Part shown: positions 51,560 through 55,413 of the stretch, piece by piece
Layout of the letters: each line of letters starts with the position of its first letter
Position numbering within the stretch: position 1 is the stretch's first letter
Assembly (NCBI GenBank): GCA_025499705.1
Contig: JAFMVE010000020.1
Coordinates: forward strand, 1 to 64,000
Length of the DNA: 64,000 nt
DNA from: Carboxylicivirga caseinilyticus
GTDB lineage: Bacteria > Bacteroidota > Bacteroidia > Bacteroidales > Marinilabiliaceae
Direction of reading: 5' to 3'
Program-made: the position numbers and the translations under genes
Notes under the pieces: model-generated
Told to the model about the DNA's origin: nothing
The model's input: the letters and a program-made list of their open reading frames with translations, nothing else
Database searches by the model: none

Positions 51560-53980
51560 TTAAAGGTTAACAACTTTAATTATATCTGCAAAAACACCTG
51601 CCGCAGTAACATCTGCACCCGCACCATAACCTTTTATTTCCATCGGATGATCGTAATAATAATCGGTACGTAACATTATTTTGTTATTACTGTCTTCAAG
51701 CTGATAGAACGGATGACTGGCATCCACCTCAATAAATCCAACTTTTGCCTTACCTTCTTTTAATGAAGCTGCATATCGTAAGATCATTCCTCTACTCTCA
51801 GCCTCTTTTCTTTTTTGCTCGAAAGCCTCATCATAGTCTTTTAAACGAGCCATGAATTGCTCAACCGATTCATCTGTAAAGAATTCCTGTGGAAGAAATG
51901 GGGTAATATCAATATGCTTTTCTTCCAACGGATACTCACACTCACGTGCTAGAATTAACAATTTTCGCAACACATCTTTACCAATTAAATCGATACGTGG
52001 ATCTGGTTCGCTATAACCTTTTTCTTTGGCTTCCTGAACAACCTCAGATAATTTTCTTTCGGCAGACACATTATTGACAATATAATTCAGTGTACCTGAT
52101 AATACGGCTTCCAACTGAAGAATCTTATCTCCACTTTGTATCATACTATTAATCGTATTGATAATTGGTAATCCAGCACCAACATTTGTTTCAAACAGGT
52201 ACTTTACTCCTTTTTGAACAGCAGTTGTCTTCAGCTTTTTATACGTTTCGTAATCAGAAGAACTGGCTATTTTATTTGCGGTAACCACCGAAACATTATT
52301 CTGAAGTAATTTTAAATAATGTTGTGCAACTTGTGGGCTGGCAGAACAGTCAACAAAAACACTATTAGACATGTTGTTTTCAATTATCTGATCAACAAAC
52401 TGAGCAATATTGCCAGGACTAGCCTCTTTCAAAACTTCTAATGCAGATTCAAGATCCAAACCTCTATCTTTAAAAATCATTTGTCTTGAATTGGCAATAC
52501 CGGCAACACGAATGCTTAAACGTTCCACTTTAAGCAATCTTTCTGCCTGGCGTTCGATCTTTTTTAAGAGACTTTTTCCAACTGTTCCAACACCAGCTAG
52601 GTAAAGGTGAATTGCCTGATACTGGCTAAGGAAGAACGTTTCATGCACAACGTTAAGCGCCTTTCTTAAATCATCCTGATGAACAACAAAGGATACATTT
52701 AACTCTGAAGCACCCTGAGCTATTGCATATACATTGATACCGTTCTTTCCTACATCATTAAACAATTTACCTGAAACACCGGAAGTATGCTTCATTCCCT
52801 CTCCCACTATGGCAACTACTGCCATATTACTATCTACCAGTACTCCGTTTATTTGTTTACGACTAATCTCTTTTTCAAATTCATTTACCAAAGCCATTTT
52901 TGCTATTTCAGCCTCGGTTGAATTAATAACAACTGAAATACTGCTTTCGCTTGATGCCTGAGAAATAAGAATGATGTTAACGTTTTCAGAAGCTAATGCT
53001 TTAAACATTCTCATAGAAATACCCGAAACACCAATCATACCATTACCTTGAAGAGTTAAAAGACTCACATCTTTGATCGATGATAATCCTTTTACTTTTC
53101 TTTCTTCATCGGTATTTTTATCTATTAAAGTTCCCGGTGCCTCTGGATTAAAGGTATTTTTAATTAATATCGGAATTTGCTTTTGAAGCGCTGGTATAAT
53201 AGTTGGAGGATAGATTACTTTTGCTCCAAAATGTGATAACTCCATTGCTTCGGCATAGCTCAGATGATCCAAACAATATGCACGTTTTATCACTCTTGGA
53301 TCGGCAGACATAAAACCATCCACATCAGTCCATATCTCCAATATTTCAGCATCTAATCCGGCAGCTAATAAAGCGGCAGAATAATCTGAACCTCCTCGAC
53401 CTAAAGTGGTATTATCTGCGTGCTCATCACTGGCAATAAATCCTGGAAAAACAGCAACTTCTGGCAAACTAAACTTTAGTTCACCGATATTTTGCATGGT
53501 TTCGTTGATTTTCACAACATGGCCACGACCGTTTATCTCTGTTTTAATAAACTTACGACTATCAAATAATTTAGCTTCCGTAATTAAATATGAGATAATA
53601 TTTGAAGATAACCTTTCACCACAACCTGAAATGGTATCGTAACTTTTCGTACTTAGTTCACCCGTTAAGCTTACACCTTTTAATAACTGCTCCAACTCTT
53701 TCCAAATTACACTCAGGTCTTCCTGAAGTATAACTTCTACAGAAGGAGTAAACAGTTCCGATATAATCTTATTATGTTTTTCTTTTAAATAACTTAATAC
53801 ATCCTGATATGCTTCGCCTTTAACCGCTTTTTTGGATGCATTAATTAGTTCATCTGTTACACCGCCTACTGCCGAAACTACAACGACCTTGGGACCTTGT
53901 ATCTTTTCAACAATACGCTTAACACTTAGCATAGCTACAGATGAACCCATTGAGGTACCTCCAAACTTAAGTACTTTCAT
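51560..53980 (-). CDS. thrA: Bifunctional aspartokinase/homoserine dehydrogenase
   Basis: An 806-residue fusion catalysing the first and third steps of the threonine branch. I start at ATG 53980 (MKVLKFGGTSMGSS). A frame-open ATG at 54040 adds non-conserved residues that lie in the leader, after the leader peptide stop at 54041. Residues 1-~280 are the kinase (KFGGTSMG, GRGGSDYSAALLA). The two ACT domains follow (VSLLTLQGNGMIGVSG, AVVAIVGEGMKHTSG), which carry allosteric threonine control. From ~455 comes homoserine dehydrogenase with the NADP loop LYLAGVGTVGKSLLKKI and SGTLNYIVNNVS. It is the first gene of thrA-homoserine kinase-thrC, with a ~145-nt leader encoding a Thr-rich peptide. Confidence 0.97.
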   Translation of the reverse strand: MKVLKFGGTSMGSSVAMLSVKRIVEKIQGPKVVVVSAVGGVTDELINASKKAVKGEAYQDVLSYLKEKHNKIISELFTPSVEVILQEDLSVIWKELEQLLKGVSLTGELSTKSYDTISGCGERLSSNIISYLITEAKLFDSRKFIKTEINGRGHVVKINETMQNIGELKFSLPEVAVFPGFIASDEHADNTTLGRGGSDYSAALLAAGLDAEILEIWTDVDGFMSADPRVIKRAYCLDHLSYAEAMELSHFGAKVIYPPTIIPALQKQIPILIKNTFNPEAPGTLIDKNTDEERKVKGLSSIKDVSLLTLQGNGMIGVSGISMRMFKALASENVNIILISQASSESSISVVINSTEAEIAKMALVNEFEKEISRKQINGVLVDSNMAVVAIVGEGMKHTSGVSGKLFNDVGKNGINVYAIAQGASELNVSFVVHQDDLRKALNVVHETFFLSQYQAIHLYLAGVGTVGKSLLKKIERQAERLLKVERLSIRVAGIANSRQMIFKDRGLDLESALEVLKEASPGNIAQFVDQIIENNMSNSVFVDCSASPQVAQHYLKLLQNNVSVVTANKIASSSDYETYKKLKTTAVQKGVKYLFETNVGAGLPIINTINSMIQSGDKILQLEAVLSGTLNYIVNNVSAERKLSEVVQEAKEKGYSEPDPRIDLIGKDVLRKLLILARECEYPLEEKHIDITPFLPQEFFTDESVEQFMARLKDYDEAFEQKRKEAESRGMILRYAASLKEGKAKVGFIEVDASHPFYQLEDSNNKIMLRTDYYYDHPMEIKGYGAGADVTAAGVFADIIKVVNL

Positions 53981-54004
53981 ATTTATAAGTAAAATGTGAT
54001 AACA

Positions 54005-54057
54005 AAATAGAATAAAAACCTGACCTGATGATATTAACAATTATACCCCCAAAGGGG
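54005..54057 (-). promoter_or_regulatory. Candidate attenuator structure in the thr leader
   Basis: CCCCUUUGGGGG (minus strand, 54057-54046) forms a tight hairpin over the leader peptide's end. A U-rich run (54013-54017 and beyond) follows about 30 nt later. The segment AUCAUCA just before that run is complementary to UGAUGAU at the leader peptide start, so alternative pairings exist. No single canonical terminator is obvious, and the mechanism is unresolved. Confidence 0.45.
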
Positions 54058-54100
54058 TTGTGGTATTTGTTAGAGTAGATGTAAGATTATAAATCATCAT
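54041..54100 (-). CDS. Threonine-rich leader peptide of the thr operon
   Basis: A 19-codon frame on the minus strand reads MMIYNLTSTLTNTTTPLGV followed by TAA. Six of 19 residues are Thr, clustered as T7, T9, T11, T13-T15, with Ile also present. It lies about 25 nt after the predicted transcription start and 60 nt before the thrA ATG. A CCCC/GGGG hairpin (54046-54057) overlaps its last codons. This is the layout of amino-acid attenuation leaders such as thrL of enterobacteria, found here by position and composition and not by similarity. Confidence 0.75.
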   Translation of the reverse strand: MMIYNLTSTLTNTTTPLGV

Positions 54101-54130
54101 TATTTCTGTCACTTGTTTTAGAATACAACA

Positions 54131-54160
54131 CAAATATAATTAGATAATTATCAAATCAAA
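54131..54160 (-). promoter_or_regulatory. Promoter of the thr operon
   Basis: Minus strand: TTTG (54160-54157), 18 nt, then TATATTTG (54138-54131), a perfect TAnnTTTG. Transcription would begin near 54125, just upstream of the Thr-rich leader peptide. Confidence 0.6.
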
Positions 54161-54420
54161 AATAACAGCCCATTTTTTGCATTAATTTGAAGATCAAATT
54201 CACAAAACTGTCTTCAAAATAAATTCCAACACTCATTATTCTAACGTAACTCTAATTACATATCCAAATGTAATTATTGGCTGAAATAGAATGCATAACT
54301 ATCCTTAAAAAATGATATCTATTAACTTGCAAATCAGAAAAGACAATACATCTTTCTCTTTACTTTCTGAAATAGTTTTTGTAAATTATATACAAAATTA
54401 CGTACCTAAATAGTTATCAC

Positions 54421-55413
54421 ATGAAACGGATTGGCATTGCATTATTATGGATAATATTCGTAATTCTTATTACGGGATGTAATCAAAAGCCAAAAATTGG
54501 TTTTTTGATGGATAGCCTCAATAACGAGAGATGGAAAAAAGATAAAGAGCTGTTTGTTCAAAAAGTTGAAGAACTGGGAGGTACAGCAATTGTTGAAATT
54601 GCTAATACCGATCCGGAAAAACAAATTTTACAGGCTCAGGAAATGATTGATCAGGATATAGATGTTTTGGTCGTTGTTCCTGTAGACCTTCAAAAAGCTG
54701 CTGAAATAGTAAAATTAGCCCATCGAAATTATGTTCCTGTTATCTCTTACGACCGCTTAATAAAAGACTGCAATCTGGATTACTATATATCAACCGACAA
54801 TATTCATGTCGGTGAATTACAGGCTAATTATCTTACAAAGATCTCACCCCAAGGTAAATATGCTTTAATCAGTGGACCTAAGAGTGATTATAATGCTTAT
54901 TTACTTCATTTAGGATGGATGAATATATTACAACCTTTAATTGATAAAGGAGATATTGAAATTGTTGTGGATGAATTCTCCAACTTTTGGCTTCCCGATG
55001 AAGCTTTCAGAATTATGAATGCCTATTTGAAAACATCAGATCAGGTTGATGCTATCATTTGTGGAAATGATGCTCTGGCCTCAGGTGTTATTATTGCCCT
55101 GAAAGATGCACACAAAGAAGGGACCGTTTTACTTGCAGGACAGGATGCTAACATACAGGCCGTTAGAAATATTGTTGCAGGCAACCAAACCATAACAATT
55201 TACAAACCCATTGAAGCATTGGCGTTTGCTGCTGCCAATGCAGCTATGAAAATTGCAGATGGAGAAGCACCTTCAAATATGAATATCACTGTTAATAACG
55301 GTAAAAGATTAGTACCTGCTATACTTTTAGAAGCTAGTGTTGTTAATCGCCAAAATATCAAAATGACTGTTATATCAGAAGGGTTTATGGGTGAGAGTGA
55401 AGTTTTTAATTAA
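54421..55413 (+). CDS. Sugar-binding periplasmic lipoprotein (XylF-like, Peripla_BP_4)
   Basis: A 330-residue exported substrate-binding protein. The lipobox LITGC gives Cys20. Family features are the start IGFLMDSLNNERWKKDKELFVQKVEELGGTAIVEIANTDPEKQILQAQEMIDQDIDVLVVVPVD, ISYDRLIKDCNLDYYISTDN, ICGNDALASGVIIALKDAH and the late TIYKPIEALAFAAANAAMKIADGEAPS. These match the D-xylose-binding group of ABC or sensor-coupled receptors. No ATPase or permease gene lies beside it, so it may feed a distant transporter or serve as a sensor component. A terminator follows. Confidence 0.85.
   Translation: MKRIGIALLWIIFVILITGCNQKPKIGFLMDSLNNERWKKDKELFVQKVEELGGTAIVEIANTDPEKQILQAQEMIDQDIDVLVVVPVDLQKAAEIVKLAHRNYVPVISYDRLIKDCNLDYYISTDNIHVGELQANYLTKISPQGKYALISGPKSDYNAYLLHLGWMNILQPLIDKGDIEIVVDEFSNFWLPDEAFRIMNAYLKTSDQVDAIICGNDALASGVIIALKDAHKEGTVLLAGQDANIQAVRNIVAGNQTITIYKPIEALAFAAANAAMKIADGEAPSNMNITVNNGKRLVPAILLEASVVNRQNIKMTVISEGFMGESEVFN

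Follow-up and report, generated by a model that had tools for sequence, protein, structure and literature searches.

The window, a stretch of 64,000 nucleotides of Carboxylicivirga caseinilyticus DNA, carries a threonine operon on the minus strand, whose first gene, thrA, encodes a bifunctional aspartokinase/homoserine dehydrogenase I (986.7 bits against NCBIfam PRK09436, cut-off 726). The closest named match of thrA is that of Carboxylicivirga linearis, with 92% identity, in a set from which nearer records are possibly absent. The next gene is a 'proposed homoserine kinase' of the ApgM type, and the frame that comes after it was annotated by eye as threonine synthase. On the other side, the operon shares its intergenic region with a divergent gene (54421-55413, plus strand) which, by eye, resembles a periplasmic sugar-binding lipoprotein. 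The features of the locus, in 5' to 3' order on the minus strand, are as follows.

54159-54131, minus strand: promoter-like pair, recognized by motif only, with TTG at 54159-54157, a gap of 18 nt and TATATTTG (TAnnTTTG) at 54138-54131
54111-54108, minus strand: P1a 5' arm, TGAC, with GTCA at 54024-54021 as proposed partner (alignment A2, pair counts)
54100-54041, minus strand: leader frame MMIYNLTSTLTNTTTPLGV and its stop codon TAA, 19 codons (reading frame, conservation, shuffles)
54099-54093, minus strand: P1b 5' arm, TGATGAT, overlapping the leader start codon (alignment A2, pair counts, constrained folding)
54058-54045, minus strand: hairpin P2, ACCCC-TTTG-GGGGT, which begins in the last Thr codon
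54032-54021, minus strand: P1 3' arm, ATCATCA-GGTCA (alignment A2, pair counts)
54018-54004, minus strand: U-rich tract TTTTTATTCTATTTT, the proposed place of termination (T columns conserved in A2)
53980-51563, minus strand: thrA (NCBIfam profile)
51486-50278, minus strand: ApgM-type 'proposed homoserine kinase' (profile match)

The 19-codon frame with six Thr that the earlier note had placed between a TAnnTTTG promoter and thrA, and the hairpin that it had described over the last codons, were both confirmed. The six Thr of MMIYNLTSTLTNTTTPLGV stand at codons 7, 9, 11, 13, 14 and 15, within 54082-54056, and the ATG of thrA (53980) starts 60 nt past the end of the leader stop codon. Between the promoter, as defined by motif, and the first gene there is a short frame in which codons for the product of the operon abound.

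Frames of this composition are rare. The whole window has 478 frames that start with Met and are 12-30 codons long; only two of these contain at least six Thr, one of them being the leader, and dinucleotide shuffles of the leader region yielded such a frame once in 5000 attempts. Within the genus, a corresponding frame precedes thrA in 13 of 14 genomes, including that of the window; the fourteenth (G008) has just 86 nt of contig left upstream of thrA. The Thr runs of these genomes differ in length and in codon choice, the length changing in multiples of three, and one member (L016) keeps just two Thr codons. The comparison of thrA upstream regions that had been proposed as a check thus gave no ground against the leader, and the claim that chance is an improbable source of the frame is upheld by the shuffles and by the 13 genomes: the Thr-rich frame before thrA is not due to chance.

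We then define as an element any frame that has two or more Thr codons in the stretch leading up to a CCC..GGG hairpin and that ends inside this hairpin or just after it. The 172 thrA upstream regions searched came from relatives, from genomes drawn evenly across the order and from 80 named genome contigs, some species being present twice and some regions being short. Elements were found in 74 of them, 67 being distinct. The 98 regions that lack an element by this rule, which include Draconibacterium, Prolixibacteraceae, Prevotella and Alistipes records, represent an upper bound because the rule misses variants such as L141. In other orders of the phylum, a similar rule retrieved the element from 13 of 40 hand-picked upstream regions, and in 11 of 13 distant elements a segment like CATATCATCC was seen by eye about 12 nt after P2. 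Thr makes up 45% of the ten in-frame codons preceding the hairpin, a figure to be read in the light of the finder's own requirement for at least two Thr; Leu and Tyr lead the other two frames. Since the ends of the peptides vary (TTP*, whose stop codon is part of the loop, TPWGV* and TLRG*; asterisks denote the stop), the constant part is the hairpin and not the end of the peptide.

Two members from another order (L222 and L224) were seen by eye to have hairpin arms in which G and C are swapped (ACGGG/CCCGT), with the stop codon within the loop and Thr codons ahead of the hairpin. This exchange of arms is natural evidence for the predicted pairing. By eye as well, L233, L234 and L236 have Thr/Ile-rich frames before thrA; what follows their Thr codons is a different sequence, and a terminator-like hairpin before a T run stands farther downstream.

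With regard to the codons other than Thr, the ten codons before the hairpin contain 17% Ile in the Carboxylicivirga group, which comprises 16 leaders chosen by hand and aligned as A2, and 19% Met in the leaders that we labelled Bacteroidaceae-like (L159, L160, L168, L179, L184, L185, L189, L153, L171, L191, L193, L207, L210, L092 and L093). Given that Ile and Met derive from the same pathway as Thr, more than threonine may be sensed, and the Met richness of the Bacteroidaceae-like leaders suggests methionine as a possible second signal.

The specificity of the element for thrA depended on the search used. The exact pattern ACCCCTTRGGGGG occurred in 14 of 35 relatives, in one copy each, 13 of which lie before thrA by coordinates and one (G046) elsewhere; its reversed control gave one match in the 35 relatives. 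The looser ACCCCTNNGGGGG gave 83 matches in 49 of 148 genomes of the order and is non-specific on its own, because just 14 of these stand within 250 nt before thrA on the same strand. A pattern for the leader start has a single exact place in the window's own genome, the known leader; when up to three mismatches were allowed, it gave 54 matches against 15 for the control and was discarded as uninformative.

A covariance model, R1, was built from 63 hand-picked elements. In 60 relatives, it gave 28 matches at E<=0.1, one per genome, and all 25 matches at E<=0.0225 lie directly before thrA; as 23 of these 25 are training sequences, this result gauges the absence of other matches and not recall. 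The three weakest matches (G051, G041 and G017) are not before thrA, and the model missed one of its training elements (L023, G021). Among the 148 genomes of the order, 19 of 24 matches precede thrA (17 of them training sequences). Another (L125, ~220-305, G179), encoding MLVLASLNLVITTITTTTTTTP, lies before thrB-thrC, and L269, encoding MTTTTTTTTPMGV, precedes a divergent frame that is aspartokinase-like by eye. L270 lies at a contig end, the thrA of that genome (G153) beginning another contig, and two matches (L271 and L272) have no evident link to thr genes. In 118 genomes of the phylum, 15 of 16 matches were before thrA (14 training sequences and one, in G239, that is not); the sixteenth, L273, is an ACT repeat. 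The Thr codons are therefore kept in relatives and specific to the cognate thr operon.

Alignment A2 displays, in this order, GACC shortly ahead of the start codon, TGATGAT overlapping that codon, the Thr/Ile codons, P2, ATATCATCAGGTC and the U-rich TTATTnTATTT. Past the U-rich tract, conservation per ten-column bin drops from 0.68 to 0.39. TAnnTTTG is present upstream of all 16 leaders, with TTG 18-22 nt ahead of it in 15, and in 15 of the 16 leaders as called, the leader ATG follows it at a distance of 30-35 nt. For L008, an earlier ATG was called, and the distance counted from the MMIY start is 30 by arithmetic.

In the structure composed of P1 (GACC and TGATGAT with ATCATCA and GGTC) and P2, 85.8% of the A2 cells are paired, compared with 35-51% when the structure is slid and with 82.0 +/- 0.9% in shuffles. 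Four pairs, corresponding to 8 cells, changed on both sides; this number of pairs was reached by 56 of 500 shuffles and this number of cells by 3 of 500. The structure slid by -2 gave 5 pairs and 7 cells, which is near the observed values. The pairing of P1 and P2 is well kept and its covariation is modest. RNAalifold, applied to the group alignment, predicted P2 and not P1, and no other conserved helix was found in A2 between P2 and the U-rich tract. Taken on its own, the putative helix P1 is moderately supported.

Tests on single sequences gave weaker results. The fold of the window leader is no more stable than that of its own shuffles (z 0.37), and the RNAduplex comparison of own with swapped partners reached <=0.05 in 5 of 67 elements, near background. 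A contiguous helix had p<=0.05 by shuffles in 10 of 67 elements, 2 of them among the 16 of the group, and by swaps in 13 of 67; the binomial value of 0.0018 for 10 of 67 assumes an independence that the sequences lack. The Thr codons themselves are not a general closing arm (6 of 67). With regard to P2, the covariation test on the CCCC/GGGG core (A3) is empty because the finder demanded CCC and GGG. The pair just outside ACCCC/GGGGT covaries among 80 elements, with 41 standard pairs against 31.6 +/- 3.9 in shuffles (p 0.008), and the positions beyond it show weak covariation or none.

The earlier note had seen no standard terminator, and this holds for the whole group: a hairpin of -4 kcal/mol or below, standing directly before a U tract, was found in none of the 16 leaders, and the z value of the window fold agrees with this. 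Among the 80 elements, 17 have such a hairpin before a U tract, and for 12 of these 17 it ranks at or below 5% of 30 shuffles. In 9 of the 15 Bacteroidaceae-like leaders, a hairpin stands 34-38 nt after P2, and a T-rich stretch follows it in 5 of these 9; its arms differ between leaders yet match each other (GCTTAC/GTAAGC, GCCTGC/GCAGGC, GTCTGC/GCAGAC). In L230-L232, from another order, AT-rich hairpins such as ATATAAT..ATTATAT-TTTTTT were found by eye at the position of the group's ATATCATCAGG; they fall short of the -4 cut. As no intrinsic terminator was found in the group, we describe the leader as one that works like a leader-peptide attenuator.

These observations support the earlier proposal of a threonine-sensing control through the Thr-rich leader, by a mechanism that may be unlike the enterobacterial one; the control of thrA itself, like stalling, termination and the direction of the response, is what we infer. 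Because of its conservation and its position, this leader quite probably mediates a threonine-dependent attenuation of the thr operon, a reading for which P1 is not needed. In the proposed mechanism, the simplest one, transcription would start just after the TAnnTTTG ending at 54131, and the 19-codon leader would be translated. With charged tRNA-Thr in ample supply, the ribosomes would reach the stop codon and leave, so that P2 could fold over the last Thr and the Pro-Leu-Gly-Val codons, enclosed by P1, in which the leader start region would pair with ATCATCA-GGTCA. P1, whose end is close to the U-rich tract (54018-54004), would be the stop signal, and RNA polymerase would then tend to halt in that tract. 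Under threonine shortage, ribosomes would pause at the Thr codons; one held at the first of these would cover the start-codon side of P1, which therefore could not form, and the polymerase would continue into thrA.

Constrained folding, in which an assumed ribosome footprint from -17 to +14 of the A-site codon was masked, indicates how such a switch could behave. With a ribosome on the first in-frame ACN (Thr) codon, the mean probability of P1b fell from 0.39 to 0.05 and that of P2 stayed at 0.56. On the last Thr codon, it abolished P2 and P1b was still formed (mean 0.50), and at the stop codon it masked both P1b and P2 until release. The stalling codon and the timing would therefore matter. 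Only 6 of the 16 leaders of the group had a P1b probability above 0.5 in the free state. P1 as the detail of the switch is accordingly offered as a tentative proposal.

An alternative to this detail, which fits the wider claim of attenuation, is that another stop signal operates and that P1 is incidental. Such a signal could be, for example, a classical antiterminator/terminator pair that escaped recognition, or a Rho-dependent termination that leader translation prevents. The lack of a hairpin directly before the U tract in all 16 group leaders, the absence of P1 from the RNAalifold prediction together with its weakness in single sequences, and the local downstream hairpin that Bacteroidaceae-like leaders carry instead all point this way. 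Nevertheless, the P1 columns pair far more than the slid controls, no other conserved helix was found in A2 between P2 and the U-rich tract, and an AU-rich leader would be a poor loading site for Rho, which counts against the Rho variant. We regard such another signal as possible, short of being the expected outcome.

A role of the leader in the initiation or re-initiation of thrA translation, rather than in transcription, is unlikely. It would suit the 60 nt between leader stop and thrA ATG in the window, and one study, in its accessible part, proposes that ribosomes re-initiate at leader genes and gives a peak at 11-14 bp for Bacteroidetes (PMC4833913). This distance, however, spans 60 to 283 nt among the 67 distinct elements, and conservation within the group ends after the U-rich tract. 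It is still less probable, indeed barely credible, that the frame encodes a small protein whose product matters or that it arose by chance. The C-terminus TPWGV recurs in many members, as a functional peptide might lead one to expect, but the peptides vary widely, from 12 to 51 residues as called, and differ at their ends, whereas the Thr codons and the hairpin persist; the chance part is opposed by the single frame in 5000 shuffles.

Returning to threonine-dependent attenuation, the elements may be extended into a more speculative and rather doubtful generalization: a phylum-wide, uncatalogued family of attenuators of Bacteroidota thr genes. In its members, a hairpin would start at the last Thr codon and have the stop codon within its loop or next to it, a ribosome over the leader start codon would act as the antiterminator, and each lineage would have tuned its codon mix to further products of the pathway, with Thr and Ile in the Carboxylicivirga group and Thr and Met in the Bacteroidaceae-like leaders. 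Major gut bacteria belong to the Bacteroidota, and the literature searched has little on how members of this phylum control amino-acid synthesis. A recurrent element before thrA is a direct test case, in which the Thr codons, the hairpin and the downstream arm can be altered separately, and the Bacteroidaceae-like relatives, with their downstream hairpin and U-rich stretch, would be a convenient host for study. The element would also add a family that annotation based on Rfam missed in the window.

Related observations exist in the same phylum. The accessible text on the Flavobacterium psychrophilum transcriptome gives strong clues of leader-peptide attenuation ahead of amino-acid operons (PMC9723704); it has in common with our case the phylum and the general idea, and its main text names no threonine leader and lacks the word 'threonine'. 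Short frames reminiscent of leader peptides are mentioned for Bacteroides thetaiotaomicron in the available part of another article (PMC7366714). The Bacteroid-trp RNA motif (RF01692) is, in the portion of its source at hand, a predicted cis-regulatory RNA of Bacteroidetes whose name points to trp genes (PMC2864571); our element would likewise be a predicted cis-regulatory RNA of Bacteroidetes, and differs in that the window gives no match to this motif. No paper on a threonine leader of Bacteroidota turned up in the open literature searched, and a comparative study of attenuation from 2010 (Lopatovskaya and others; cited in PMC4833913 and PMC10272879) may contain one.

The kind of switch is familiar, and this family is absent from Rfam as searched. 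No relevant Rfam covariance model matched, either in the window at the gathering score or in 53900-54450 at E<=10; this applies both to Bacteroid-trp and to the threonine leader, RF00506, which we take to be the Thr_leader family of the enterobacterial thr leader, thrL. Enterobacterial thrL, which precedes thrA, encodes a short leader peptide and contains codons for Thr and Ile. The present leader is similar in these respects and in the proposed readout of charged tRNA-Thr. In contrast to thrL, the leader of the window has no Rfam match and no canonical terminator was found in the Carboxylicivirga group; moreover, the 5' side of the hairpin here starts inside the last Thr codon, with the stop codon inside the hairpin or just past it. 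In the pyrBI attenuator of E. coli, which responds to UTP, a ribosome on the leader frame blocks the stop signal without a separate antiterminator. The leader of thrA would resemble this type in that the ribosome itself prevents the stop signal, the proposed signal being threonyl-tRNA instead of UTP.
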